DNA of 39,185 nucleotides from a virus. The stretch lies in IMG/VR virus record IMGVR_UViG_3300042453_002579, positions 1 to 39,185 of that record; one strand, written 5' to 3'. Position 1 is the first letter of the stretch. Each line of letters opens with the position of its first letter. The notes beneath the pieces are model-generated. The model was not told where the DNA came from and searched no databases. It worked only from the letters and a program-made list of their open reading frames with translations. Shown piece by piece: positions 4,529-24,282 of this stretch. A program made the position numbers and the translations under genes.

Positions 4529-5224
4529 ATGACGAAGCCGCTGACCATCGACACCGCAGCAACCTGGACGGGTTCGCTGACTACGATCCAGGACGGAGAT
4601 CCAGCGAGCGAGGCGACCATGGACGTGGTCGTCGATTCGATCGGCGATCATCTTGGCTACCTGAAAACGCGCGCGGAAAACTCGATCCCGGCTTCGCTGC
4701 CTGTTGCTGTCCCCTATACGCTATCGGGCGTGTCCGGCTCTCGCGTAGACGTGACGGTGCCGTTCCGGTTTTACGCTGGCCTCGACGTCTATTCGGCCGC
4801 GCTGACCGTGCAGAGCGGCGCGCAAGTCTTGTTCTCGGGTAGCTCGTCGCTCATTACAAGCACAGGATCAAAGACGACGATTCACGGCGCATTCGGCGCA
4901 GACTTTGAGATTCTTTCCGACGCGAACGGGACGCTCGGGTGGGCATTCGAGTCGCGCGTGCCGACGTTGACGGCTGCGCGGACCTACACGTTGCCCGATC
5001 CTGCTTCGATTTCGTTCGCTGCAGGGTACGCACGCAAGCGCGTCGTCAAGGTCAATAGCAGCGCCTTCGGGGTCAACATCAACGATCCGGTTGCTGGTCT
5101 CATCGGCACGATTGACCTTGGAGACCACAAGGGTTGGATCGACTTCGTGTTCGGGCCATCGAACAACACGTGGAGGGTTTCCGCTTGGGGCGGAAACGTC
5201 TCGTTCTTCTCGACCATGCTGTGA
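4529..5224 (+). CDS. Receptor-binding/tail fibre-like protein, paralogue B
   Basis: The 231-residue protein is a tandem paralogue of the gene before it. The N terminus (MTKPLTIDTAATWTGSLTT, HLGYLKTRAEN) and the C terminus (NTWRVSAWGGNVS) are strongly similar, as is the phrase VPTLTAARTYTLP. The central region (about residues 60-125) has diverged. That pattern of conserved ends and variable middle suggests a duplicated adsorption protein with different tip specificity, or two subunits of a hetero-oligomer. The start ATG lies 8 nt after the upstream stop. Confidence 0.6.
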   Translation: MTKPLTIDTAATWTGSLTTIQDGDPASEATMDVVVDSIGDHLGYLKTRAENSIPASLPVAVPYTLSGVSGSRVDVTVPFRFYAGLDVYSAALTVQSGAQVLFSGSSSLITSTGSKTTIHGAFGADFEILSDANGTLGWAFESRVPTLTAARTYTLPDPASISFAAGYARKRVVKVNSSAFGVNINDPVAGLIGTIDLGDHKGWIDFVFGPSNNTWRVSAWGGNVSFFSTML

Positions 5225-5232
5225 GGTCCTAA

Positions 5233-7518
5233 GTGGGTACAGCGCTCTCCGAACTACTCGCACAAGCGGCCTACGGCAAAAGCGCTTGGAAGCTGGCTTG
5301 CCGCACGATAGCGACGGCAAACGTCACGCTCTCAGGCCTACAGACGATCGGCGGCGTATCGCTAGCGGTAGGCGATCGCGTGCTCGTCACCGGGCAAACC
5401 AACGCGGCGCAAAACGGGCCATACACGGTATCGGCCGGCGCGTGGTCGCGAGGCATCGACTTCGATTCGGCGAGCGATGTCCAATACGGTTCGCGGTTCG
5501 CGATCACGGATGGGACGGCGGCCGGCCAAGTCTGGATGATGACGAGCCCGACGAGCGGGCCGATTGCGCTCGGTGCGACGCTGCTAACGTTTGGCCTCGA
5601 GTCGGACGGCAGCGTCACGATCTACCCGAGCGGAGACACGACCGGCATTGCCGATAGAACGGCTATCCAGACCAAGATCGACGCCTCCGAGGACGTTGTT
5701 CTGATTGCCGGCGAGACGTACACGATCGACCAAGCCCTCGTCGTCACGAGCGGCACGAGGATTCGCACTACGGCCAACGGAGAGCGCGCGCGCATCGTCC
5801 GCGCGAGCACGTGGGTCCCTGTCCTCGGGAATGCCGACGTCTCGAGCAACCACGCGATCAGAATCAACGGAACGACGATCGCTACCGGGCTGATGCAGGT
5901 CGCTCAGACGATGTTCGTCGGCGCTATATCCGCAACGTGGAGCGGCGCGAACGTAAACAACATCGTCGTCGGCGATTGGGTACAGGTTCGCGGCACGAAC
6001 GCAGCCGATCCAATGTACGGACAATCGGACTCGGTCGAATACCAATCGATCGTCAAGATTGCGACCAAGACATTCGGCGACGGCTACGTGTTCACGTTCG
6101 ACGAGCGAACAGGGCAGCACCACGCGAGCGGTGCCGCGCTGTCTCGCATCGCGCCAGTCGACGACGTCGAGATTCGGGACATCGAACTCGACTTTTCTGG
6201 CACGACCGGGACTCCGGTAGCGGTGGGCATCTACGGCTATCTGTGCCGGCGCATCAGAATCAAGAACGTCGCCGCGCATGGCTTCTCGCGCGCTGCGTTC
6301 GAATGGCACGATAGCGAGCGCATTCTCGAGGATGGGTGCTCGAGTCGAGGTCAATGCAACAGCATGAGCCTCCGGCGCACGTCCTACGACGTAGAGAGCA
6401 AAAATGCCGTATGGCTCGGTGAGATTGAGCGGCAGCACCCGCAGGGCGTTCCGCGCGGAGTGTTCTGCGACCTCTACGGCAACTCGGGCAACGCAGTTCG
6501 GAACGCCACGATCCAGATCGCTTGCATCGCATACAGCGCGATCGGCGGCCTCGCTTGCGGCGTCGACGGGTTGCGCGTGGTCGACATCGACGCGACTGCA
6601 GCGGCCTCGCGGAATCCCGACTGGGGCGCAGCCTCGATTCGAGGCAAGGGAGCCGTTGTCGACATGGGCGCGCAAGTGCTGTCGAGTTCCAAGGGGATTG
6701 GCTGCTATGCGCTGAACGTGTCGGCTGAGAGCGCGTGGAACAACTCCACGGACGGGCACGCGTTCACGTTTCGCGACCAGACTGACCTACAGGCTGCCAA
6801 CCTACAGCTGGCCAACGCTGGCCCGTCTCCGTTCGCGCCTCCGACCGGATACAACACTTGGGGCCTGTTTCTCTGCAATAGCAGCGGAACGATCGGGCTG
6901 ACCTCGATCAAAGGCTGCAACGTCGGGATCCGATTCGCTGGCGCTCTGGCTCGCGTAATCGTCTCGTCGGTCGGATTCACAGGTCAAGGTGGAGGCGGAA
7001 CGAACGGATCGATCCCGCTCTCGCTCAACCACTCAGGCGGCAACGGCACCGGGCCGCGAATCATCAACATAGGCATTGACAACGCGAACAATCCGCTTTG
7101 CTCGTTCGGCGGGAACTTCACGGGCAATCCCGATCGCAAGTTCTTGATCCTGCGTGTCGACCAAGAGTCGAACGTCTATACCGACGTCGTTGCGGCCAAG
7201 GGGACGGCTGCGTCGCAGGGACAATGCCTCGAGTGGACCGGTGGCGCGGACGACTTCGCGGCGACCACGGCCGCTTCGACTAAGGCGATCGTCGCGCTCG
7301 GTCAATCGTCTAGCGGTTGGGCCCTCGTGGCGATGGGCAGCGCGGCGGTCCGATACGATGGCGTCCCGGCGCTCGTGCGCGGAGACCTGCTCGAGAGCGG
7401 CACGGGTGGAGGCGCGTATGTCAACAACGCGCCGGCAAACCCGCTTACGGCTGCGTGGCGGGTGATGACGACGGCAGCGACCGGGCAGCTTGCCCAATGC
7501 GTGAGGGCTATCGGATGA
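5233..7518 (+). CDS. Tailspike protein, right-handed beta-helix type
   Basis: The 761-residue protein starts at a GTG 8 nt after the previous stop. Residues 20-120 form a tail-attachment module recognisable from its pattern TIATANVTLSGLQTIGG, GDRVLVTGQTNAAQNGPY. Residues 130-200 contain the start of a parallel beta-helix (DRTAIQTKIDASEDVVLIAG, TYTIDQALVVTSGTRI), as in pectate-lyase-like tailspikes. The long Asn/Gly/Ser-rich middle is consistent with beta-helix rungs. Such spikes bind and often depolymerise capsular or O-antigen polysaccharide. Catalytic residues cannot be assigned by eye. It is the largest protein of the window and the best candidate host-range determinant. Confidence 0.8.
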   Translation: MGTALSELLAQAAYGKSAWKLACRTIATANVTLSGLQTIGGVSLAVGDRVLVTGQTNAAQNGPYTVSAGAWSRGIDFDSASDVQYGSRFAITDGTAAGQVWMMTSPTSGPIALGATLLTFGLESDGSVTIYPSGDTTGIADRTAIQTKIDASEDVVLIAGETYTIDQALVVTSGTRIRTTANGERARIVRASTWVPVLGNADVSSNHAIRINGTTIATGLMQVAQTMFVGAISATWSGANVNNIVVGDWVQVRGTNAADPMYGQSDSVEYQSIVKIATKTFGDGYVFTFDERTGQHHASGAALSRIAPVDDVEIRDIELDFSGTTGTPVAVGIYGYLCRRIRIKNVAAHGFSRAAFEWHDSERILEDGCSSRGQCNSMSLRRTSYDVESKNAVWLGEIERQHPQGVPRGVFCDLYGNSGNAVRNATIQIACIAYSAIGGLACGVDGLRVVDIDATAAASRNPDWGAASIRGKGAVVDMGAQVLSSSKGIGCYALNVSAESAWNNSTDGHAFTFRDQTDLQAANLQLANAGPSPFAPPTGYNTWGLFLCNSSGTIGLTSIKGCNVGIRFAGALARVIVSSVGFTGQGGGGTNGSIPLSLNHSGGNGTGPRIINIGIDNANNPLCSFGGNFTGNPDRKFLILRVDQESNVYTDVVAAKGTAASQGQCLEWTGGADDFAATTAASTKAIVALGQSSSGWALVAMGSAAVRYDGVPALVRGDLLESGTGGGAYVNNAPANPLTAAWRVMTTAATGQLAQCVRAIG

Positions 7519-7790
7519 GCGTCGAAAAGGTCCTAGGTGCGTTAGCTGGATTCGAGGCCGCACGAGCCAACGTATTCGAGCGCGGCTGTCCGACTGCTAC
7601 AGGAGCGCGCGAGGTCTACCAATGGCGACCGGTCGACGATTCGGCGGCCTCGTGGCTGCTATTCGTCGAGCGATACCCGAGCGGGCCGATTCACGAGTTT
7701 GGCCGCGAGATCCTATCGATCGGCGCTACGCTCGCGCTCGATCCGCAATGCTCCGAGCGCATTCCAGGCGCAGATGCGTCCGAGGGCTGA
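7515..7790 (+). CDS. Small hypothetical protein after tailspike
   Basis: The 91-residue acidic protein starts at an ATG overlapping the tailspike stop. It contains a compact aromatic core (REVYQWRPVDDSAASWLLFVERYPSG) and no membrane segment. I do not recognise the family. Its translational coupling to the tailspike raises the possibility of a spike assembly chaperone or accessory subunit, but that is inference from position only. Confidence 0.55.
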   Translation: MSVEKVLGALAGFEAARANVFERGCPTATGAREVYQWRPVDDSAASWLLFVERYPSGPIHEFGREILSIGATLALDPQCSERIPGADASEG

Positions 7791-7794
7791 TAGG

Positions 7795-8076
7795 ATGCAA
7801 CACATGCCCATTCTGCCGGTCATGCCCGCGCCTAATGGCTCGGCCGAACACCTCGCCGAATCGCATCACGAGGACGATCGCGAGCTGCTCTTGCGCGCTG
7901 TCGAGGGAGCCAAGCTAGCAGCCGAAGAGGCCAGCAAAGCCGCGCAACGTGTCGACGCGCTGCGCGTGCGATTCGAGGCGGACATTGCGATTGCCGCGAA
8001 GCAGCGGCGCACGATCGGCATGGCTACGATCCTCGCTGGTGTTCTGCCGGACCTAATCCACGCGTTGGGAGGCTGA
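7795..8076 (+). CDS. Small membrane-associated protein, holin-like candidate
   Basis: The 93-residue protein has an N-terminal Pro-rich segment, a charged helical middle (residues about 20-70, with heptad-like spacing), and one hydrophobic C-terminal segment (TIGMATILAGVLPDLIHAL). The start may be the ATG at 7795 or the ATG at 7804. A soluble coiled coil followed by one C-terminal membrane anchor recalls XhlA-type lysis accessory proteins. The next gene is also a small hydrophobic protein, so the two may form a holin/accessory pair. The endolysin lies 5.4 kb downstream, so the assignment is tentative. Confidence 0.45.
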   Translation: MQHMPILPVMPAPNGSAEHLAESHHEDDRELLLRAVEGAKLAAEEASKAAQRVDALRVRFEADIAIAAKQRRTIGMATILAGVLPDLIHALGG

Positions 8077-8077
8077 A

Positions 8078-8344
8078 ATGGGCCGCTGGATTCTCGACCA
8101 TCCCGAGCTTGCTCTCGTCGCCATCGCGCTCGCCGGTAACGCAGTCGCGGAACTGCTCGAGAAGCTGGGAGCGAAACGGGCCGCTGGCGTCGTCGCCGCG
8201 CTCGTGCCGCATGTCCGCAGCCTCGTGGCGGTGTTCGTCGCGGCCAAGACTCACTCGGCGATTGCAGCCGACAGCGAATCTCGACCCCTCGCGCTGGACT
8301 CGCAATCGCCGGGTGAGGCTAACTCTGAGGAGCCCAAGCCGTGA
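8078..8344 (+). CDS. Small membrane protein, holin-like candidate
   Basis: The 88-residue protein starts one base after the preceding stop. It has a hydrophobic segment at about residues 10-28 (ELALVAIALAGNAVAELL) and a second at about 37-58 (AGVVAALVPHVRSLVAVFV), followed by a hydrophilic acidic tail. Two short membrane-capable helices and a charged C terminus fit a class II holin. There is no sequence signature to prove it, and a virion-associated membrane protein is an alternative. Confidence 0.45.
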   Translation: MGRWILDHPELALVAIALAGNAVAELLEKLGAKRAAGVVAALVPHVRSLVAVFVAAKTHSAIAADSESRPLALDSQSPGEANSEEPKP

Positions 8345-8670
8345 CCCTGTATGCGGGCGACAAGGGGCCGGCAAAGACGATTGCGATCACAATCGCGACC
8401 GGTGCCGTCCCTGGTACGTCGATCGCATCGGTTCGGCTGCGCGTGCGCTATCCCGACGGGACCGAGGCCGAATGGCTGCCGAGTGTCACGGCGACCACCG
8501 CGACGTCGGTTACTTGCGCCTACGCGCTACAGGGTGACGGCTCGTCTGTCCCGCTCGAGGGCTCCTATTACGTCCGCGCGTGGGGCTATACCGCGCTAGG
8601 CGCACAGATTCTCGATACCGACGAGGCATTGCTACGGGTCGCGCCTTCGCGGCATACTTGGCCCATCTGA
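8341..8670 (+). CDS. Small beta-rich virion protein
   Basis: The 109-residue protein starts at a GTG overlapping the upstream stop. It reads as an all-beta domain (IASVRLRVRYPDGTEAEW, GSYYVRAWGYTALG), similar in texture to Ig-like or carbohydrate-binding modules found on tail fibres and capsids. It has no Cys and no signal peptide. Function is not recognised. Context, in a run of surface-type proteins, suggests a virion decoration or fibre accessory role. Confidence 0.5.
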   Translation: MTLYAGDKGPAKTIAITIATGAVPGTSIASVRLRVRYPDGTEAEWLPSVTATTATSVTCAYALQGDGSSVPLEGSYYVRAWGYTALGAQILDTDEALLRVAPSRHTWPI

Positions 8671-8682
8671 GGAGATTCGATC

Positions 8683-9114
8683 ATGGCAAACAAGATTTAC
8701 CCGAAGGCTCTCGAGCGCTCTCTTTCCGCCGGTCTCGACCTCGGCGCTCACACGATCAAAGCGGTTTTTATCGACACCGCGACCTACACGTACAGCGACG
8801 CGCACGAGTTCATGAGTTCGGTCGCTGTCGGCTCGAGGATCGCGACGAGTGCAGCGCTCACGGGCAAGACGATCTCGACAGTGAACACCGACGACGTGCG
8901 CTTCGATGTCGCCGATTTCTCGGTGACTTTCGCTGCTGCGCAGCCGACGTGCGAGGCCTTGATCTATTACGCCGAGATCGGTACCGACGCGCAGAACTAC
9001 TTGATCAAATACATGGACACCTCGGCATCGCTCCCGCTTACGCCTCCTCCCGGCGGAGGGACCGTCAACGTCACCGTCTCCGCCAACGGCGTTTTCGAGC
9101 TGCGCAACGTCTGA
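8683..9114 (+). CDS. Putative phage structural protein
   Basis: The 143-residue protein has a good ribosome-binding site (GAGGAG, 10 nt before ATG). The N terminus MANKIYPKALERSLSAG followed by a beta-rich body (HTIKAVFIDTATYTYSDAHEF) is a pattern I associate with small phage structural proteins. Residues 100-125 form a Pro/Gly hinge (LPLTPPPGGG) before a final beta strand. Likely a fibre- or capsid-associated component; exact role unknown. Confidence 0.55.
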   Translation: MANKIYPKALERSLSAGLDLGAHTIKAVFIDTATYTYSDAHEFMSSVAVGSRIATSAALTGKTISTVNTDDVRFDVADFSVTFAAAQPTCEALIYYAEIGTDAQNYLIKYMDTSASLPLTPPPGGGTVNVTVSANGVFELRNV

Positions 9115-9123
9115 GGCTAGCCA

Positions 9124-9459
9124 ATGGCGGCATCCGTAAATACCAGCGGATCGCAAACGGCGGTCATTTCGACGCAGCACGTGCTTGCGACCATCACGGC
9201 CGCAGGCACGTATCAGCTCGTCGTCGATATGTCTGCCATGGCTGGCGGTACGACTCCCGACGAGCTTCGCGTGTTCGTTTTCGGCAAAGCCCGAACGGGG
9301 GACGCAGAGGTGACCGAAGAGGTCTACCATTTCATAGGCGCACAATCGAAACCGCTATGGCGCTCGCCTCCGGTGTGGTCGCCGCACTACTACAAGGTGG
9401 CTATCACGCAAACGGCCGGAACCGGCCGCGCTTTCCCGTGGGCTGTGTACCAGCCGTAA
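9124..9459 (+). CDS. Putative virion protein
   Basis: The 111-residue protein is beta-rich, with strands such as VLATITAAGTYQLVVDMSAM and ELRVFVFGKA, and a Trp/Pro motif (KPLWRSPPVWSPHYYKV). It sits in a series of small structural-looking genes between the tailspike and the lysis region. It resembles proteins that form a small oligomeric beta-sandwich on virions. No named family is recognised. Confidence 0.5.
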   Translation: MAASVNTSGSQTAVISTQHVLATITAAGTYQLVVDMSAMAGGTTPDELRVFVFGKARTGDAEVTEEVYHFIGAQSKPLWRSPPVWSPHYYKVAITQTAGTGRAFPWAVYQP

Positions 9460-9468
9460 GGTGACCCA

Positions 9469-10305
9469 ATGCCCTACGCAGCGGCGAGTTTCGGCGATTG
9501 CAGGACGCAGACGCTAGGCGCGGTCACGGGCACGTCAACGGGCACGCTCGTAACCGCAAACGCGACAGCGAACACGAAAGGGGCGTGGGTCTCGCTTGGT
9601 CAAGCTGCGCGCGCCTATGAGCTATTCCACGTCGGCATCGGTGCATCATCGGCCGCTGCCGATTACGTGTTCGACGTTGGCCTTAGTGGCGACGGAACGA
9701 ACTTCTACGCGATCGCGACCAATCTGCGCCTTGGAGCGCTGAAAGGCGCGGCTGATTTGTTTCTCGGCTACACGATTCCCGTGCGCATTCCCAACGGGTT
9801 TTTCGTGGGGATGCGCTGCGCTGCGAGCACGGGCGGATCGACGCTCCGAGGCATCGTCACGGCCGCAACGTCGACGCCGCTATCGGCCGGCGGATTCTCG
9901 GAGCTGAACGCCTATTACACGCCGACGGCTTCGCGCGGCATTACGGTCGACGCGGGCGCAACCGCGAACACCAAGCCGGCCTGGACCAGCATCGGGACAT
10001 TGAGCGCGGGCGAAACGGTGGACGCGATCATGCTCGGAATCGGACCCAATGCAGACGTCACGCGCACGGCTGCTACAACGGGTTTGCTCGACATCGGCGT
10101 TGGTTCCGCTGGCAATCAATACGCCGTGATCGAGAACATTCTGTGGGGATTCACGACGACGAGCGACACGCCCTACCCGAGCGTGATCGGCCCGCTGCCT
10201 GTATCGATCCCACCGAGCACGACGATATGGGCGCGCATGCAATCGACGAACAACGCGGCCGGCGATAGGACGATCGATCTGGCCGTCTGGGGCCTCATCG
10301 CGTGA
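9469..10305 (+). CDS. Putative virion surface protein with internal duplication
   Basis: The 278-residue protein appears to consist of two related beta domains. The block GTLVTANATANTKGAWVSLGQAA near residues 25-47 recurs as DAGATANTKPAWTSIGTLSA near residues 161-180, and each is followed by a similar FHVGIGASSAA / IMLGIGPNADV strand and a YVFDVGLSGDG / GLLDIGVGSAG strand. This implies an internal duplication of about 135 residues. Likely a tail or capsid surface protein; no enzymatic motif is visible. Confidence 0.55.
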   Translation: MPYAAASFGDCRTQTLGAVTGTSTGTLVTANATANTKGAWVSLGQAARAYELFHVGIGASSAAADYVFDVGLSGDGTNFYAIATNLRLGALKGAADLFLGYTIPVRIPNGFFVGMRCAASTGGSTLRGIVTAATSTPLSAGGFSELNAYYTPTASRGITVDAGATANTKPAWTSIGTLSAGETVDAIMLGIGPNADVTRTAATTGLLDIGVGSAGNQYAVIENILWGFTTTSDTPYPSVIGPLPVSIPPSTTIWARMQSTNNAAGDRTIDLAVWGLIA

Positions 10306-14774: not shown

Positions 14775-15257
14775 TCAGAACGGATAGTCGTCGGCGGGCT
14801 TGCGCTGCGCTCCCGAAGGCGCGCCCCCGTTGGCCCGTGCGATCATGCCGCGCATGCGTGCGGCGAGTGCTTTCTTCGATCGCTCGTCGAGAGCATCGCG
14901 GAACGTGAGCCGGCCCGAGCCGGGGCGGTTTACCCATTTGATCCTGAGTCGACGCTCGCCCTGGTATTCGTCCCACGCGATGTCGAGTTCGACGTCGCAA
15001 TCGTTGATTCCGGAGAGGTCGAGGAGGTCATCCCCGGACCAACCGCAAGCGCGAAGGGCCTTGATTGTGATCTCGCTCGCCTGGTTGCTGCCGAAGCCGC
15101 CGACCCATTCGATCGTCGACGAGCCGGGCTTGCCGTGCTCGAGGAACGCGAACGAAAGCGCGATTTGCTCGGCTCCGCTCTTCGCTCGACCCCATCGGAT
15201 CTGCGACGGGTTGTCGATGCAGCGTGCCAGGTATTTGCCGGGTTCCGTGATGCTCAT
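14775..15257 (-). CDS. Single-stranded DNA-binding-like protein (DUF669 type)
   Basis: The 160-residue protein is the last gene of the reverse recombination operon; its ATG overlaps the stop of the ATPase gene. It shows a beta-rich core (GEQIALSFAFLEHGKPGS-like strand pattern, CDVELDIAWDEYQGERRLRIKWVN, quoted by pattern) and ends in ADDYPF. An acidic tail finishing in Pro-Phe is the protein-interaction tip of SSB proteins. Proteins of the DUF669 family occupy the same place beside Sak4-like ATPases in many phages. It likely coats single-stranded DNA for annealing and recruits partners through the tip. It ends 6 nt from the stop of the convergent endolysin gene. Confidence 0.7.
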   Translation of the reverse strand: MSITEPGKYLARCIDNPSQIRWGRAKSGAEQIALSFAFLEHGKPGSSTIEWVGGFGSNQASEITIKALRACGWSGDDLLDLSGINDCDVELDIAWDEYQGERRLRIKWVNRPGSGRLTFRDALDERSKKALAARMRGMIARANGGAPSGAQRKPADDYPF

Positions 15258-16171
15258 TTCTTGGTCTCCTCTTGGATTCGATCGCGCATTGCGACCATTT
15301 CATGCATTGGTCTCGGGCTTGCGGCCCATTGTTCGAACTTCGCGAGCTTCTCTGCGTCGCTCGCCAGTAGCGCGCGAATCTCGACGGCGGCCTTGCGGTT
15401 TCGGTCGACGGACTTCGCGAACGCGCTCCACGATAGGTCGAGCGATTCGGGAAGCGCGAACCGATTCTTTGCCTCATAGGCGGCCGTTTTGGTCGTGTAG
15501 ACGAGCCTTCGGCCAGTGCTGACTCCCTTGGTGCGTCCGTCTACCTGCGTCGCGTATTGCTCCCACGACGCGAACAGGACGGTGTCCGCCCATTCGCGCA
15601 CGGCTCCGCCGAACTTCTCATTGACCTTCATCGTCCAGCGATCCCAATCCTCACCGGCCGGGTTGGCGTACTTTTTCAAATGGGCGTGCGCAATCAACAC
15701 GACGTGCATCCCGCGCTTGCTTTGGAGCAGCTCCAATGCACCGAGGAATCGCCGTGCCGCCTGCAATGCCTCGACGTATCCGCGACCGTACCCGAACGCC
15801 TCGATCGAGGCCTGCTGATGCTCGCCGCAGACGTGCGCCCATAGCAGCGGCTCGGCCCAGTCGAGCGAATCGACGACCACGGTCTGATAGTCGTGCTCCG
15901 CATCGGTCAGCTCGCGAACCCCCTCGAGGATGTCAGACCACGACTCAGGACGCGGGAATCGCGCGACGTCGAGAGCGCCGCTGCCGTCCTCGGTGCCAAT
16001 GAAAATCGGCGATGGTGCGGAGGCAGCAAACGTCGTTTTTCCCACGCCTTCCGCGCCGTACAGGACGACACGATGCGGAGACGCGATCGGGCCGCGTTTG
16101 ACGTTGGCCAAGCCCATGCGGCCTGCGGTTGCTTTCGACCCTTGCGCTTCTGGTTTCTTGGTGGCATTCAT
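15254..16171 (-). CDS. RecA-like AAA ATPase, Sak4-type recombinase
   Basis: The 305-residue ATPase has Walker A GAEGVGKTT (residues 39-47) and Walker B YQTVVVDSLDW (95-105), with the next strand GMHVVLIAHAHLKK matching sensor-type spacing. These features and its neighbours (an SSB-like protein and a Cas4-like nuclease) fit the Sak4/phage nucleotide-binding family of single-strand annealing or strand-exchange proteins. I placed the start at the ATG of MNATKKPEA, which has a purine-rich GAGGGA upstream; the frame is open for 57 more codons upstream but without family-like sequence. Confidence 0.8.
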   Translation of the reverse strand: MNATKKPEAQGSKATAGRMGLANVKRGPIASPHRVVLYGAEGVGKTTFAASAPSPIFIGTEDGSGALDVARFPRPESWSDILEGVRELTDAEHDYQTVVVDSLDWAEPLLWAHVCGEHQQASIEAFGYGRGYVEALQAARRFLGALELLQSKRGMHVVLIAHAHLKKYANPAGEDWDRWTMKVNEKFGGAVREWADTVLFASWEQYATQVDGRTKGVSTGRRLVYTTKTAAYEAKNRFALPESLDLSWSAFAKSVDRNRKAAVEIRALLASDAEKLAKFEQWAASPRPMHEMVAMRDRIQEETKK

Positions 16172-16196
16172 GTTCCCTCGCTTCGCTGTGACACTC

Positions 16197-16237
16197 ACGA
16201 GCGTCTGAGATGGTCTCAGGCGCTCGTTTCTTTTTTG
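16197..16237 (+). terminator. Strong hairpin plus T-tract, + strand, inside the reverse operon
   Basis: On + the sequence ACGAGCG-T-CTGAGA-TGG-TCTCAG-G-CGCTCGT folds into a 7+6 bp stem with one internal T/G pair and a 3-nt loop. TTTCTTTTTTG follows at once. It reads as a textbook intrinsic terminator for + transcription, although the flanking genes are on -. It would stop read-through from the late lysis operon before it opposes the recombination operon promoter. On - it is a hairpin without a T-tract between the nuclease and ATPase genes, possibly an mRNA processing or stability element. Confidence 0.75.
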
Positions 16238-17181
16238 AGTTCCGAGTGAGCCCCAACGTGCTCGAATCGCTCGGAATCCTCGATTGACGCTGCACCGGCG
16301 CAGACGTCCAAATAGTCGCAGCGTGCCCCGAATCGGTAGCAAGCTGCGGTGCTCCTGGGCCAGTGACCGCGCTTACGATCGGCGCGCATCGCCTGGATCG
16401 TGGCGACGTCGTCGGCCTGGCATTCGCTTAGCTCTTTCTCGAGGCGGTAGATCTCGGCTCGCGCGTAGAAGGTTTCGGGGCGCTCCGCGATAGCGACGCG
16501 GACGCGCTCCGCGTACTCGTCGAGCGATTCGTCGACGTCTCGCTGCGTGGCGTAGAGGCGGCCCTCTTTGGTATAGCGACGCTCGGCCTCAGGCGTTGCG
16601 AGACGTCGGGAGATCTTGGGCTTTCCGAGCACGTCGTAGATGACCCCGGCGACGTCGTAGCCGAGCGCTTTCGCGCCGAGCACGTAATAGCTGATTTGAG
16701 TGTCCACTTGGAGCCGGTCCCAATAGGGCGACCCCGGCCCAACGTCCGACGACGTCGTCTTGTGCTCGAGCACCCAGTGCGCGCCGTGACGGTCGACCAC
16801 GATCGCGTCGACCTTGCCAGCTCGCTCGATTCCGCGAATCCGCTTGCCCGTGCGCGGGTCGTAGATCGGGCACCGAAACGAGGCCTCGACCGCTACCGCA
16901 CGCAGGCCGTGCTCGGTACGGTCCGACTCCCATCGGAGCGCGTAACCGTCGAGCATGGCGCGAGCGCGGACGAGGTCTTCGCCGCTCAGCTGCTCGAAAA
17001 GGATGAGCTCGATCTGCTCGGGCTTGCCCAACCAATACGCCTCGAGGGCGGCATGGATCGCCGTGCCGAACGCAAGGGCTTCGGCTTTGTCTCCGCGCTT
17101 GCGAATCCCTTGTTCGTATCGGTGCAGATATGCACGAGGGCACGACCTGTAGAGCGAGATCGAACTAGTCGTTAGGAGCAT
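16216..17181 (-). CDS. PD-(D/E)XK nuclease, Cas4/RecB-like with Fe-S cysteines
   Basis: The 321-residue protein begins the reverse recombination operon. It has the RecB-type nuclease core: GTAIHAALEAYW (39-50, His43), Asp125 in GKVDAIVVD, and EHKTT (Glu139, Lys141), then QISYYVLGA (162-170). A Cys at 14 (SCPRAYLH) and three C-terminal cysteines (C281, C288, C294 in CYRFGARCDYLDVC) match the 4Fe-4S cluster layout of Cas4/AddB enzymes. In phages this nuclease usually pairs with a Sak4 ATPase to resect ends for recombination. Although Cas4 homologues serve CRISPR adaptation, its operon indicates a recombination role. Confidence 0.85.
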   Translation of the reverse strand: MLLTTSSISLYRSCPRAYLHRYEQGIRKRGDKAEALAFGTAIHAALEAYWLGKPEQIELILFEQLSGEDLVRARAMLDGYALRWESDRTEHGLRAVAVEASFRCPIYDPRTGKRIRGIERAGKVDAIVVDRHGAHWVLEHKTTSSDVGPGSPYWDRLQVDTQISYYVLGAKALGYDVAGVIYDVLGKPKISRRLATPEAERRYTKEGRLYATQRDVDESLDEYAERVRVAIAERPETFYARAEIYRLEKELSECQADDVATIQAMRADRKRGHWPRSTAACYRFGARCDYLDVCAGAASIEDSERFEHVGAHSELKKETSA

Positions 17182-19519: not shown

Positions 19520-19900
19520 GTGCAGCAAGAGGTCTCGTTTTTCGTGCGCGGGCTAGCCATTGGCAAGCCGCGACCTCGCGTAACCGCTCGTGGCGCGTTC
19601 ATGCCGGCCCGATACCGCGATTATCAGCGCGAGGTGAAGGCGTGCGCGATCGAGGCCTTCGGGGTGCACCTCGAGGCGGGAGGGCGTTGGGATGTCGAGG
19701 CTCCGATGGTGCTCGATTGCACGTTCGTCTTTACGGACCATCGACGGCGAGACCTCGACAACCTGCTCGGCGGGGTCATGGATTCGTTGCTCTCGGTCGC
19801 CTATCGCGACGATTCGCAGGTCGTCGAAATCGCCGCGCGCAAGTTCGTGCTGGGTACCGAGCCGAGCGTTAGTGTGCGGCTTCGGCTGCTCGGTGAATGA
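19520..19900 (+). CDS. rusA: RusA-like Holliday junction resolvase
   Basis: The 126-residue protein starts at a GTG just after the upstream stop. It shows the RusA signature: an N-terminal GKPRPRVTARGAFMP substrate loop, HRRRDLDNLLGGVMDSL with the Asp pair 78/80, and YRDDSQV with Asp 97/98. RusA is a dimeric endonuclease that resolves four-way junctions, used by phages to debranch DNA before packaging. Length is right for the family. It sits among nucleotide and DNA metabolism genes. Confidence 0.85.
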   Translation: MQQEVSFFVRGLAIGKPRPRVTARGAFMPARYRDYQREVKACAIEAFGVHLEAGGRWDVEAPMVLDCTFVFTDHRRRDLDNLLGGVMDSLLSVAYRDDSQVVEIAARKFVLGTEPSVSVRLRLLGE

Positions 19901-19941
19901 TGCTGAATAGGCCGGCCGGTCGGCTGGCGAGAGGGGCGAGA

Positions 19942-20379
19942 ATGAAGCTATCTGAACAGGTTCGCGAGTTTCACCGCGCAATGGGTCAGCCTGTGCTCGA
20001 GCGGCCGAAGGTCCCCGACGATGAACGCGTGCGGCTGCGGCTGCGGCTCATCGCTGAGGAGTTCATGGAGCTTGTCGATGCGACGTTGATCCTCCCCTAT
20101 GCGCAGTTCGCGCGGCAGCTACGGGGCATCATCGACACCGCTCCGATCGCCGTCGACCTCGTCGATATGACCGATGCGCTGGCCGATCTGGACTACGTCA
20201 TCGAGGGGACGCGCGCAGAGTTCGGCATCGACGGGGAGCCCATTGCCGCGCTCGTGCACGATTCGAACATGGCCAAGCTCGGCGGCAAGCCCGACGCATT
20301 GGGCAAGATCCAGAAGCCCGCAGGCTGGCAACCTCCCGACATCGAGGGAGAGCTAACGCGGCAGGGCTGGCTCGAGTGA
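19942..20379 (+). CDS. MazG/HisE-like phage nucleotide pyrophosphohydrolase
   Basis: The 145-residue protein begins MKLSEQVREFHRAMGQPV, the usual start of this phage family, and has a GAGGGGCGAG ribosome-binding site. An in-frame ATG at 19897 overlapping the RusA stop would add 15 residues of atypical sequence. Residues 28-50 hold RLIAEEFMELVDA (acidic metal-binding helix) and 75-95 hold DLVDMTDALADLDYVIEGT, with the second acidic helix. The C-terminal SNMAKLGGKPDALGKIQKP is characteristic. It hydrolyses NTPs or dNTPs to monophosphates and PPi, and may remove alarmones or modified nucleotides. Confidence 0.85.
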   Translation: MKLSEQVREFHRAMGQPVLERPKVPDDERVRLRLRLIAEEFMELVDATLILPYAQFARQLRGIIDTAPIAVDLVDMTDALADLDYVIEGTRAEFGIDGEPIAALVHDSNMAKLGGKPDALGKIQKPAGWQPPDIEGELTRQGWLE

Positions 20380-20690
20380 GCCTCAGTGCGGCCGAGCTGG
20401 TTGCGCTCATGCGCAAGCGGCAAGCGGGCGTTGGGCTGAGCGATTACCAGCGGCGGGTACTGGCGCACATTCGCGAGCAAGCGTGCGTCGATGAGATCTG
20501 CCCGCGATGCGAGCGGGCCGCGATCATCGAGGTCGACGCAAAGGTCGAGCGGGCAACGGCTGAGGAGCTAGCAGCCGGTGAAGCCGAGCGTTGGTGGGGT
20601 CCGTGGAAGCGTTTTCACGAGGCTTACGTAAAAAGCGGCGTGCATCATGGCGATGCGCTTCGGATGCTCGAAAGGAACAAGGACAAATGA
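20376..20690 (+). CDS. Hypothetical protein directly upstream of cas12m
   Basis: The 104-residue protein starts at a GTG overlapping the upstream stop, and its own TGA overlaps the Cas12m ATG. It contains one CPRC pair (EICPRCERAA), helical charged segments and a Trp-rich patch (AERWWGPWKRF). No second Cys pair is visible, so a full zinc ribbon is not supported. Translational coupling to the CRISPR effector makes it worth testing as an accessory, but position alone may reflect packed phage gene order. Confidence 0.55.
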   Translation: MSLSAAELVALMRKRQAGVGLSDYQRRVLAHIREQACVDEICPRCERAAIIEVDAKVERATAEELAAGEAERWWGPWKRFHEAYVKSGVHHGDALRMLERNKDK

Positions 20691-22411
20691 CGACAAGGGT
20701 CTACCGATACGGGTTGCTAGCTCCGACTGAGAACGGCGAGCTAGTCAGGCAGCAAATGCGGCTCGGTCATCGCTATCAGAACGACCTCATTGCGATCGAA
20801 CGAGGCCGAAGGTTGGCGTTTGCCGCTGTCATGTCGAGCGACACGCGCATTTCAGAGGCCGAGGCCAAGATCACTGAGATCGACGCGAAGATCTCGCAAG
20901 CGGTAGAGCGAGCTCGACAAGCTCGAGTGGCGCGCCGAACCAAGGCAGACACCGACGAGACCAAGTCCGAGATCCGGTCACTGAAAGCATCCAAGGCCGC
21001 TGCCGTGCTCGAGCTGCGATCCGTCAAGCCGCTCGTGCAATCCGAGCTGCGGCCTAGGATCGCAGAAGTCGACGCAAGGGCTCACGAGCTGCAGATCTCC
21101 GCTCGCGCACACTGCGGGGTCTATTGGGGGACCTACCTGCTCGCGGAAGCGGCCGCCGAACAGGCGGCGAAAACGACGAAGGGCGAGTTGAGATTTCAGC
21201 GCTGGGACGGCTCTGGACAGGTCTCGGTGCAGATCCAAGGCGGTGCAGACGTCGATGACGTCGTCGGCGATGCGGACACTCGGCTGCGTTGGCCGCAATA
21301 CGTAGAGGGGACGCGCAAAGCCAAGCGCACCGAACTCGCCATGCGCGTAAGCAGCGAAAAAGGCGCTCCGGTCTGGGCACGGTGGCCGATGGTCTATCAC
21401 CGGCCGTTGCCCACCAATGCCAGGATCAAGCGAGTGATCGTATCGCTACGCATGCGCGGTCCGCGTGAGGAGTGGTCGGTCGAGGTCACGATCGACGCGT
21501 CGACGTGCAGACTCCGCGACCGGCCCGACGGTGGCAAGGTGGCGGTGCATCTTGGCTGGCGCAAAGAGCCTAGCGGGAACGTGCGAGTGGCTACCTGGCT
21601 CGGCGACGATGGGGACGCGGGGAGCATTGAGTGCCCCGAGCGCGTCCTTACCGGATTTTCCAAGTGCGAATCGTTGCGCTCGATTCGCGATCGAAACCTC
21701 GACGAACTACGGGCGCGCCTTCTGTCGGCTCGCGATGGATGGCCGGAATGGCTGCGCGATGCCACGTCGAGCCTGCACCAATGGCGCTCTCCCGGCCGGT
21801 TCGTGGCGCTCGGGCAACGATGGAAAGCGGCTGGCGTGGATCCAGCGCACGCAAGCGACTACGGGGCGATCGAGGCTTGGCGGTATAACGACCATCACCT
21901 TTGGCGCTGGGAGCATGACCAGCGGCTAAACTCGACTCGCTACAGGCGCGAGGTCTACAGGATCGCGGTGGCTGAGCTGTCGAGGCGATACCGTCGCGCC
22001 ATCCTGATGGCGGCCGATTGGGCCGAAATGGCGAAGCTCCCCGGCATCGGCGAAGGCGCGCCGGACCTGCCCGACGAAGCGCGCGCGCAGCGCGTGGAGA
22101 CTGCTCCCTACGTGCTGACCGAGGCGTTGCACTCTGCGATGGCCGAGGTGGTTTGGGTCGATCCTAGCTATCTGAGTCAAGCGTGTCGGCATTGCGACCA
22201 CAAAGACACCGGCGACACGTGGGTCCGAGAGTGCACCTCGTGCGGCAAATCGAGAGACATCGACGAGGCTGCAGTGCGCACGATGTTGGATCTCGAGGAG
22301 GCCGGCGCGTGGTCGTGGAAAAAGGGAGGAGCCAAGGACGACAGCGGCAAGGTCCGCGAGATCCGCGCGCCGAAGTGGGCCAAGAAACACGCGACCGAGG
22401 CCGCAGAGTGA
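20687..22411 (+). CDS. cas12m: Cas12m-like CRISPR effector (type V-M, formerly V-U1)
   Basis: The 574-residue protein is close in length to known Cas12m (about 600). Seen in order: N-terminal MTTRVYRYGLLAPTE followed by a helical arm with LRQQ-type REC segment (residues 18-140); YWGTYLLAEAAA (146-157); FQRWDGSGQVSVQIQ (170-184); RuvC-I strand VAVHLGWR (285-292); HQWRSPGRFVALGQRW (364-379); a helix LWRWEHDQRL; RuvC-II strand AILMAADWAEM (438-448); zinc ribbon C500-x2-C503 and C516-x2-C519; RuvC-III RDIDEAAVRTML (523-534). The GSG-V-VQ, HLGWR and W(R/K)SP(G/Q)RF blocks match, as I recall it, the Mycolicibacterium Cas12m. His288 replaces the first RuvC Asp, as in that family; Ala442-Ala443 replace the acidic pair expected at RuvC-II. 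Known Cas12m binds crRNA-matched DNA and blocks transcription. A CRISPR array lies 55 nt downstream on the same strand. TnpB is the alternative, disfavoured by the array and by these blocks. Confidence 0.88.
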   Translation: MTTRVYRYGLLAPTENGELVRQQMRLGHRYQNDLIAIERGRRLAFAAVMSSDTRISEAEAKITEIDAKISQAVERARQARVARRTKADTDETKSEIRSLKASKAAAVLELRSVKPLVQSELRPRIAEVDARAHELQISARAHCGVYWGTYLLAEAAAEQAAKTTKGELRFQRWDGSGQVSVQIQGGADVDDVVGDADTRLRWPQYVEGTRKAKRTELAMRVSSEKGAPVWARWPMVYHRPLPTNARIKRVIVSLRMRGPREEWSVEVTIDASTCRLRDRPDGGKVAVHLGWRKEPSGNVRVATWLGDDGDAGSIECPERVLTGFSKCESLRSIRDRNLDELRARLLSARDGWPEWLRDATSSLHQWRSPGRFVALGQRWKAAGVDPAHASDYGAIEAWRYNDHHLWRWEHDQRLNSTRYRREVYRIAVAELSRRYRRAILMAADWAEMAKLPGIGEGAPDLPDEARAQRVETAPYVLTEALHSAMAEVVWVDPSYLSQACRHCDHKDTGDTWVRECTSCGKSRDIDEAAVRTMLDLEEAGAWSWKKGGAKDDSGKVREIRAPKWAKKHATEAAE

Positions 22412-22466
22412 ACCGCTCGCAGGGTGCTTGCCATGTGCGCGGTATTGCTGGCATCCTGCGGGACTC
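22412..22466 (+). promoter_or_regulatory. Leader segment between cas12m and the CRISPR array
   Basis: These 55 bases separate the cas12m stop from the first repeat. They are GC-rich, with no clear -35/-10 pair. The array may therefore be transcribed with cas12m. A short stretch at 22417-22433 loosely resembles the start of the repeat but is out of phase with the array. Confidence 0.35.
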
Positions 22467-22649
22467 ATCGCAAGGGCTGCTCAGGGCCATCGAATCTGAG
22501 ACGGCGCGGTGGTACGCCGAGCGCGGATGAATCGCCAGAATCGCAAGGGCTGCTCAGGGCCATTCAATCTGAGACCTCGGCGCGCAGGACGGACGGCGTA
22601 TGTCCTTGCCCCAATCGCAAGGGCTGCTCAGGGCCATCGAATCTGAGAC
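22467..22649 (+). CRISPR. Mini CRISPR array: three 36-nt repeats, two spacers
   Basis: Repeats lie at 22467-22502, 22540-22575 and 22614-22649, spaced 73 and 74 nt apart. The first and third are identical over 36 nt (start ATCGCAAGGGCTGCTCAG, end AATCTGAGAC); the second differs at two adjacent bases (CG to TC). Spacers are 37 nt (22503-22539) and 38 nt (22576-22613) and unrelated to each other. Each repeat holds an inverted pair CTCAG/CTGAG whose second arm ends two bases before the spacer, the position expected for the 3' hairpin of a type V crRNA handle. The two variant bases lie in the loop, so the stem is kept. Orientation therefore matches cas12m: repeat first, spacer 3'. Confidence 0.9.
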
Positions 22650-22684
22650 CAGCGGCAGTCGGTGGCGTTTGATAAACTAACGAC

Positions 22685-22728
22685 AAGCGCGCCGAGAACG
22701 CTCGAAACCCGAGCGACTTCGCGCGCTT
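22685..22728 (+). terminator. Nested hairpin between CRISPR array and replication gene
   Basis: Outer arms AAGCGCGC (22685-22692) and GCGCGCTT (22721-22728) are perfect inverted repeats of 8 bp. Inside them CGCTCG (22699-22704) and CGAGCG (22710-22715) form a second perfect 6-bp stem around AAACC. A weak T-containing stretch (CGGTCTTTG) follows. It could end the crRNA transcript, protect its 3' end, or act as an origin-proximal or translational control element for the replication gene that starts 35 nt later. The lack of a clean T-run makes terminator function uncertain. Confidence 0.5.
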
Positions 22729-22762
22729 CGGTCTTTGATGGCTGTTTGATAGGAGGTGCACA

Positions 22763-23674
22763 GTGTGGGCGAAACTTGATTGCGGGTGGTATGAGGCGCG
22801 CTGGATCGACGGCGCGCGAGCTAGACGGGCCGATCTGCTGGCGGCGTGGGCGGTGGCGCTCGCGTGGACGGTGCAGCACCGGACCGACGGCCTGCTCCCG
22901 AGCGGCCGTGTAAAGGCGCTGCTCGCGTACGCCCTCGAGGTGGACCGGGTCGATGCGGGCCGGCTCGTTGAGGCGCTGGTCGAGGTCGGGGCATGGATCG
23001 AGGTGGCCACCGGCTACCAGATTGCCGATTGGGACCAGCCGACTCGAGACGATCAGGACCGAGCGCGTGACCTGGCAAGTCGACGGCAAGCGAAGCGACG
23101 GGAGGTCTCGTCGTCGCCGGACATGTCACGCCGTGACAGTCACGCAGTGTCACGCCGTGACAGTCACGCAGTGTCACGGCGTGACGCATCGGAGGTGTCA
23201 CGCGAGTCGCGTCACGCAGTGTCACGCTCCCAGATAAGAGAAGATCAGAAAAGAACAGAACAGAACAGAAGTGCTGTCGCGCCCGCGCCCACACCCGCGC
23301 CCGTGCCCGCACCCGCGCGCGAGACCGTCGAGCCGCAGACGCCTACGGCGGGACAGCAACAAGGGGTGGGGATTAGTGACGACCAGCGGACGATCCTCGA
23401 AGCCCTGGGACGTCACCGCAAGCTCGAGGCGGTCGCCACGGCAGACCTAGCCGCGACCATCGACGGTCGGCGCGCCGCTCGAGGTCACTCGGTCGCAGAG
23501 GTCGTGCGCGCCATCGACGACGCGGCGGCACACTCGGTCGAGGGGCTGCAGGCGGAGGCCCTGCGGCGGAGGGTCGTCCAGTACACCGATCGAGCTCGAC
23601 CGCCGGTGCGCGTGGTTGCGCCAGCGCAGTCGGACGTCCCCGTCGAGCGCGCCTGGAAGGTCGGGGCGCTGTGA
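22763..23674 (+). CDS. Replication initiator protein (lambda O-like role) containing iterons
   Basis: The 303-residue protein starts at a GTG with a strong AGGAGGTG site 4 nt upstream. Residues 1-100 resemble the winged-helix N-terminal domain common in phage replication proteins (KLDCGWYEARWIDG, RADLLAAWAVALAWTVQHRTDG, quoted as pattern; YQIADWDQPTRDD). Residues 122-156 are an octapeptide repeat SRRDSHAV encoded by 24-bp DNA repeats; then follow a Gln/Asn-rich piece, a Pro-Ala linker (APTPAPVPAPA) and a C-terminal helical domain (about 205-303) likely for partner binding. The next gene is a DnaC-like helicase loader overlapping by 4 nt, the O-P arrangement of lambdoid phages. The protein should bind its own internal repeats. 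Confidence 0.75.
   Translation: MWAKLDCGWYEARWIDGARARRADLLAAWAVALAWTVQHRTDGLLPSGRVKALLAYALEVDRVDAGRLVEALVEVGAWIEVATGYQIADWDQPTRDDQDRARDLASRRQAKRREVSSSPDMSRRDSHAVSRRDSHAVSRRDASEVSRESRHAVSRSQIREDQKRTEQNRSAVAPAPTPAPVPAPARETVEPQTPTAGQQQGVGISDDQRTILEALGRHRKLEAVATADLAATIDGRRAARGHSVAEVVRAIDDAAAHSVEGLQAEALRRRVVQYTDRARPPVRVVAPAQSDVPVERAWKVGAL
23125..23230 (+). repeat. 24-bp iterons inside the replication gene
   Basis: Repeat units start at 23125, 23149, 23173, 23197 and (partial) 23221, in exact 24-bp register. Units one and two are identical; three and four are diverged. The core GTCACGCCGTGAC is a 13-bp palindrome, and GTCACGCAGT ends most units. The DNA repeats keep the codon frame, giving the SRRDSHAV repeat in the protein. 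This is the arrangement of lambda ori within gene O. Confidence 0.85.
23125..23272. other. Predicted replication origin (iterons plus AT-rich segment)
   Basis: The 24-bp iterons (23125-23230) are followed at once by a purine/A-rich segment at about 23231-23272 (CAGATAAGAGAAGATCAG then AAAAGAACAGAAC repeats). It is the most AT-rich stretch nearby in an otherwise GC-rich genome. Iterons followed by an easily melted segment, inside the initiator gene and just upstream of a helicase loader gene, is the lambda-type origin layout. Confidence 0.7.
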
Positions 23675-24282
23675 GCAGTCTCGGCGATGAGCTGACCGTC
23701 ATGTTGACAGCTATCGGTCAACGGCTCCGACTCGAGGAGCGGACCGAGGAGCCTACCCGTCGACCTCGCGACCTGACCGGCGCTCCTGGCTCGTACGGGT
23801 GGCTACACGAGCCCGGCGCGCTGTCTCGGCTGGTAGGGTGGCCTACAGCGGATAAGCTGCGTCTAATCGCCAGCCAGCGGCCAAGGATGGCCTGCCTTTG
23901 GGGCAAGCGCTCCGGGGTCGGCAAGACGGCCTCAGCGGTCGCCCTCGCGCGGGTACTCTCGCCCGATGGGATCGGGCTGTTCGTCCGCTCGACGGAGCTG
24001 GTTGCGTCGATCCAAGAGGCCGGCTGGGGCTCGGTGCCTGAACTGGTCCATCGGGCCAGGACCACGGGCCTCCTCGTGCTCGACGACCTCGGGATCGAAC
24101 AAGCGTCCGAACCGGCTCGGGCGGCGCTGTGCGATCTGGTGTGGCGACGGGCAGACCGACCTCGAGGGACGACGATCGTCACCACGTCGCTCGGACCGGA
24201 CGAGCTCACGAGGCGCTACGGGGACGGCATGACGCGTCGGCTCCACGAGGCGGCCAGCGTCGAGATCGGCGGTGCGACGTGA
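23671..24282 (+). CDS. DnaC/IstB-like helicase loader ATPase
   Basis: The 203-residue AAA+ protein starts at a GTG overlapping the upstream stop. Walker A is GKRSGVGKT (78-86), Walker B is LLVLDDLG (134-141), and TTIVTTSL (about 167-174) is the sensor-1 region of DnaC/DnaI-type loaders. Residues 1-70 would contact the helicase or the initiator. It presumably delivers the host replicative helicase to the origin in the preceding gene, the role of lambda P or DnaC. No phage helicase or polymerase gene was found, so replication depends on host enzymes. Confidence 0.85.
   Translation: MSSLGDELTVMLTAIGQRLRLEERTEEPTRRPRDLTGAPGSYGWLHEPGALSRLVGWPTADKLRLIASQRPRMACLWGKRSGVGKTASAVALARVLSPDGIGLFVRSTELVASIQEAGWGSVPELVHRARTTGLLVLDDLGIEQASEPARAALCDLVWRRADRPRGTTIVTTSLGPDELTRRYGDGMTRRLHEAASVEIGGAT

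Follow-up and report, generated by a model that had tools for sequence, protein, structure and literature searches.

A two-spacer type V-M CRISPR array adjoining cas12m in a contractile-tailed phage and the turnover of spacers in its sister phage

Gene neighbourhood and layout of the array

The DNA analyzed here, referred to as the window, comprises positions 1 to 39,185 of the IMG/VR virus record IMGVR_UViG_3300042453_002579. It encodes a terminase, a Mu-type portal, a Mu-like protease and a gpT head protein, as well as a DUF2586 tail sheath, a baseplate J protein and a tape measure, and the phage hosting the array is contractile-tailed, its head being Mu-like. As shown in Table 1, a short CRISPR array lies between cas12m and the genes for a replication initiator and an ATPase. 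The ATG of cas12m overlaps the stop codon of the preceding ORF (ATGA overlap).

Table 1. Features of the cas12m-array region (window coordinates).
Feature	Position	Strand	Remarks
MazG-like gene (Pfam PRA-PH)	19897-20379	+	in the gene run with cas12m
Short ORF	20376-20690	+	directly 5′ of cas12m
cas12m (type V-M / V-U1 effector)	20687-22411	+	574 aa; array 55 nt 3′
Leader	22412-22466	+	55 nt, cas12m stop to repeat 1; strong hairpin, 13-bp outer stem
CRISPR repeat 1	22467-22502	+	direct repeat copy
Spacer 1	22503-22539	+	37 nt, GGCGCGGTGGTACGCCGAGCGCGGATGAATCGCCAGA
CRISPR repeat 2	22540-22575	+	two loop differences, TC for CG
Spacer 2	22576-22613	+	38 nt, CTCGGCGCGCAGGACGGACGGCGTATGTCCTTGCCCCA
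CRISPR repeat 3	22614-22649	+	direct repeat copy
Hairpin 3′ of array	22685-22728	+	strong, then CGGTCTTT; candidate transcription end of array
Replication initiator	22763-23674	+	after array
IstB/DnaC-like ATPase	23671-24282	+	after replication initiator

The array consists of three direct copies of a 36-nt repeat unit (ATCGCAAGGGCTGCTCAGGGCCATCGAATCTGAGAC) with start-to-start distances of 73 and 74 nt; the first and third copies are identical and the second differs from them at 2 positions. Three near-identical 36-mers, regularly spaced and located beside cas12m, are not a product of chance. The repeat copies delimit both spacers exactly at the coordinates given in the initial annotation, which had also described the two spacers as wholly different; on comparison they are indeed unrelated. 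When the window repeat was searched in IMG/VR, the only other carrier was a sister phage, 3300010354_000234. Degeneration of the repeats is already evident in the window and sister arrays alike, so that of the window may represent a remnant, frozen or in decay.

Strong folds flank the array on both sides. The leader hairpin (-27.5 kcal/mol, z -2.7) is common to the sister phage (-28.1 kcal/mol, z -3.5), in which one stem position reads A-U instead of the G-U of the window; it is a candidate leader hairpin or, alternatively, the end of the cas12m message. The downstream fold spans 22683-22745 (-30.9 kcal/mol, z -3.3), and a terminator scan did not call its hairpin as a terminator on the + strand. 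A sigma-70-like promoter was looked for near the array and none was found.

Searches for Cas1 and Cas2 families across the whole 39,185-nt record gave no match, while positive controls were detected in control genomes, in agreement with the earlier description of a phage devoid of adaptation genes. Elsewhere in the window, a PD-(D/E)XK exonuclease gene adjoins one for a Sak4-like annealing protein (15254-17181, - strand), a phage recombination pair that could aid array exchange between phages. Within the replication-initiator ORF, two exact 24-nt direct repeats (TGTCACGCCGTGACAGTCACGCAG) with nested palindromes are present at 23124-23171; these are iteron-like and mark a possible origin.

Cas12m effector and repeat handle

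Judged by homology over its full length, the window effector is a Cas12m. The PADLOC Cas12u1 profile covers residues 33-567 of the 606-aa ORF (E 8.8e-90), Pfam assigns a Cas12f-like TNB domain to the product, and solved Cas12m structures are matched with E values of 2.3e-50 (23vw), 2.9e-27 (8pm4) and 2.4e-21 (8hio). RuvC residues were placed by alignment with the effectors of virus Rctr197k (D-E-D) and of a 194-kb phage contig, L013 (N-E-D). In the window protein, H288 takes the place of the first Asp and M441 that of the Glu, so that these two residues are lost; D526 aligns with the last Asp, and all four zinc-finger cysteines are kept. The resulting H-M-D triad adds to the published Cas12m triads, namely HEK, HQK, HDD, DED, NED and DND (PMC10442227).

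Type V-M systems silence without cutting and protect from phages and plasmids (PMC11013384, PMC10442227), and Cas12m guards E. coli against both (PMC11013384). None of the members with D-E-D, H-D-D or N-D-D triads cleaved dsDNA, so that even those retaining D-E-D do not cut (PMC11013384). Because such members failed to cleave, the window Cas12m would be expected to bind dsDNA without cutting it. The initial annotation had raised silencing in place of cutting as a condition, and the H-M-D RuvC makes it very probable.

Base pairing within the repeat was analyzed using 18 distinct copies, taken from the window, the sister phage and Rctr197k. Two helices result, 9-11/20-22 and 14-18/30-34, built throughout of standard pairs (100% paired cells). 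The 14-18/30-34 helix is the invariant CTCAG/CTGAG stem, interleaved with helix 9-11/20-22, two pairs of which covary between the two phage lineages (G-C to A-U, C-G to A-U). Positions 25-28, between the stems, vary inside all three arrays. In the GoCas12m crRNA, interleaved helices form a pseudoknot (PMC11013384). The repeat handle of the window lineage would fit a pseudoknotted V-M crRNA, and the covariation is supportive, not strong, evidence since only two lineages were compared. Ordinary folding of single repeats, which is blind to pseudoknots, performed no better than shuffles.

Spacer turnover and target searches

The comparison rests on one sister phage, the only one found (L002, 37,368 nt), which shares with the window long blocks of about 87-97% nucleotide identity. 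One region of the window (5592-7786) has no close DNA match in this otherwise near-identical phage; it spans most of the structural ORF 5233-7518, with head-decoration and tail-fibre family matches. The cas12m genes of the pair are 91.6% identical in nucleotides and 96% in amino acids, with dN 0.021, dS 0.35 and dN/dS 0.06, and cas12m is under strong purifying selection. The leader is likewise conserved, as are the first ~27 nt past the last repeat. Yet the sister array contains 8 repeats and 7 spacers (in order 38, 37, 38, 18, 36, 38 and 17 nt), and none of the seven resembles either window spacer. The initial annotation had treated the inter-repeat sequences as guides, to be abandoned for a structural RNA if they were conserved base for base in related phages lacking cas12m. 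Since no such conservation is seen in the sister phage, where the spacers are completely turned over beside the same cas12m, leader and flank, the guide assignment stands. In L019, a more distant relative (terminase 68%), the replication module occurs without cas12m, repeats or spacers.

The heteroduplex or R-loop of Cas12m measures 17 bp in Mm (PMC10442227) and 18 bp in Go (PMC11013384). Because their lengths equal these values, the 17- and 18-nt sister spacers could still work as guides. Alternatively, they could be deletion products, since Rctr197k has eight identical repeats closest to cas12m and degenerate distal ones, among which 13- and 26-nt spacers occur. The repeats of the sister array are degenerate throughout; it looks like an old array without recent additions at the leader end, and the same probably applies to the window array. 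The initiator gene that follows the sister array ends prematurely after ~50 codons, and the start of another, different initiator comes next (L002:12338-13000), which suggests recombination immediately next to the array.

Inside the window, the best other matches reached 23/37 for spacer 1 and 23/38 for spacer 2 (14/18 over the first 18 nt). As shuffled spacers match equally well over all fetched loci, no self-target is indicated in the window, consistent with the earlier observation that an extended match is lacking there. The wider search proposed in the initial annotation gave no credible protospacer: none was convincing in the window, the sister or related phages, INPHARED phages, PLSDB plasmids or IMG/VR (20-nt seeds), and GTDB species genomes, searched only with a 34-nt exact combined pattern, gave no match. 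Several partial matches were set aside. Spacer 1 agrees exactly over 20 nt with an exonuclease-like gene of L011 (3300005281_000263), with GCA upstream; the agreement ends at base 20 (22/37 overall) and was attributed to chance or to a coding motif in common. For spacer 2, phages of the phiCbK group gave a gapped match of 83.8% over 36 nt (E 0.1, 24 ungapped matches) and L040 matched at 17/18 over the seed and only 23/38 overall; since the agreement is mainly in the first 16-20 nt, both were judged coincidental matches between GC-rich coding sequences. The plasmid matches listed all had E values of at least 0.1. For environmental spacers the target is often not found, and such failure is no proof of absence. 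A TTN PAM, as foreseen initially, cannot be assumed for the window system, because T-rich as well as C-rich PAMs occur among Cas12m effectors (PMC11013384) and no protospacer was found that could reveal one.

Spacers of the relatives were searched as well. Those of the sister, Rctr197k and L013 gave nothing significant in INPHARED, and a combined pattern of sister spacers R2/R3 hit three other IMG/VR contigs with only 19-29 of 37-38 positions matching. The 18-nt sister spacer R4 (ACCATTACCGGGCGCGGC, L002:12038-12055), which reads TITGRG, gave five exact matches in IMG/VR other than that to its own array. Two of the five lie within one conserved motif shared by the divergent terminase large subunits of L055 and L102 (GTITGRGG..IIIDDPL / ILIVDDPL), and with a slightly degenerate R4 pattern 13 of 56 matches, read by eye, show this motif. 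The match is suggestive of a target, not proof of one, given the shortness of the 18-nt guide and the great abundance of terminases in the collection. A 16/18 match of R4 to the tail sheath gene of L018/L019, with synonymous mismatches, lost weight because the TITGRG peptide is common in terminases.

Comparison with known systems and proposed role

V-M systems are enriched in plasmids and present in some prophages (PMC11656645); phage- and prophage-borne examples have been reported, and the kind of system is therefore known. Phages below 200 kb are reported to carry CRISPR systems only rarely (PMC11656645). With the type V-M systems of Mm, Go and Ms Cas12m, the window system shares a single effector of ~570-620 aa with a non-canonical RuvC, an adjacent array and a 36-nt repeat with a pseudoknot handle; it differs in its H-M-D RuvC, outside the published triads (PMC10442227), in its location on a ~39-kb phage contig and in having only two spacers. 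The Cas12m-like proteins of landfill viruses (PMC12607003) are likewise virus-borne, with an array adjoining the effector and no acquisition machinery; they were identified by profile and tree placement, whereas here spacer turnover and selection on the effector were measured. Virus Rctr197k (KX853510) has a 33-35% identical effector, a related repeat with the CTCAG/CTGAG stem and the same order, and differs in its size (197 kb), its 22 recognisable repeats, its D-E-D RuvC and its identical leader-proximal repeats. In this locus (L004:3953-7418), the Cas12m gene is annotated only as 'similar to transposase', beside CRISPR. The L013 contig (IMG/VR 3300031949_000004, 5001-9478) carries the N-E-D Cas12m with a ~30-repeat array of a different repeat family, and an 83-kb viral contig (L003:10004-10477) encodes the N-terminal part of a Cas12m (157 aa), likely a remnant, downstream of which no array was detected. 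No Cas12m relatives were found in GTDB genomes with the peptide patterns used. The mini-CRISPR arrays of SPV1 and SPV2 are likewise virus-borne and short (one or two spacers), and inter-virus conflict was proposed for them (PMC6858448, PMC11656645); they borrow a host effector, in contrast to the window array, which has its own effector gene, and for its spacers no credible match was found in related phages, IMG/VR seeds, INPHARED or plasmids. We found no report in the literature of the natural targets of virus-borne V-M systems. Beyond prior reports, the present data add the replacement of spacers under a conserved effector in a sister pair, the H-M-D site and the half-length spacers.

We favor, with a probability of about 0.6, a phage-carried V-M array with replaceable guides, in which Cas12m silences rival phages or other mobile elements. 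The cas12m gene and the array would probably be transcribed as one RNA, each repeat folding into a pseudoknot handle on the 5′ side of the guide, to which Cas12m would bind. Guided by the first 17-18 nt of the spacer, the complex would then bind matching DNA and block transcription or replication of the target; DNA would be bound and not cut, since an H-M-D RuvC would be incapable of two-metal catalysis. Spacers would be swapped fast, with the effector retained under strong purifying selection. They would probably be exchanged or gained by repeat recombination or host adaptation proteins, because the phage encodes no adaptation proteins of its own. The simplest role would be the silencing of competing phages or other mobile elements sharing the cell. 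Rival elements are proposed as targets of the window guides by analogy, since no protospacer was found for either spacer. A bolder version, which we consider speculative and rather unlikely, is that guides are reshuffled between co-infecting phages by repeat recombination without Cas1-Cas2, that the 17-18-nt spacers work, and that the H-M-D effector blocks conserved genes of rivals, such as terminase.

The guides might instead repress host defence or regulatory genes, a resident prophage or a plasmid, thereby aiding infection. Silencing effectors suit gene regulation, ICP1 offers a precedent with its I-F system directed against the PLE island (PMC11656645), and host targets could have escaped a bacterial search that took 34-nt exact matches only. 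Nevertheless, that search gave no match in GTDB species genomes, and the sole attractive spacer match in the array family is to phage terminase genes, which leaves host repression an unlikely reading. It is quite improbable that the locus is a relic, whose effector or array no longer guides and whose spacers are leftovers. Although there are only two spacers, the repeats of both phages are degenerate, the short spacers resemble deletion products (compare the degenerate distal Rctr197k array) and no targets were found, a cas12m dN/dS of 0.06 over a dS of 0.35 argues against a relic, as do repeat stems that are invariant or covarying next to variable loop positions, and spacers that are completely replaced while the flanks persist. 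A structural or regulatory RNA in place of a guide array, for which the strong conserved leader hairpin and the second strong hairpin downstream could speak, is extremely improbable, given that the inter-repeat sequences all differ between close phages, in number as well (2 vs. 7), with the repeats kept, and that the L019 replication module lacks cas12m, repeats and spacers altogether.

The H-M-D effector has lost two RuvC catalytic residues naturally and could serve as a clean DNA-binding scaffold. The two near relatives share the same purifying-selected effector, and their guides are wholly replaced; such a sister pair therefore allows one to study how a silencing CRISPR system is updated in a phage without adaptation genes, and whom the phage silences.
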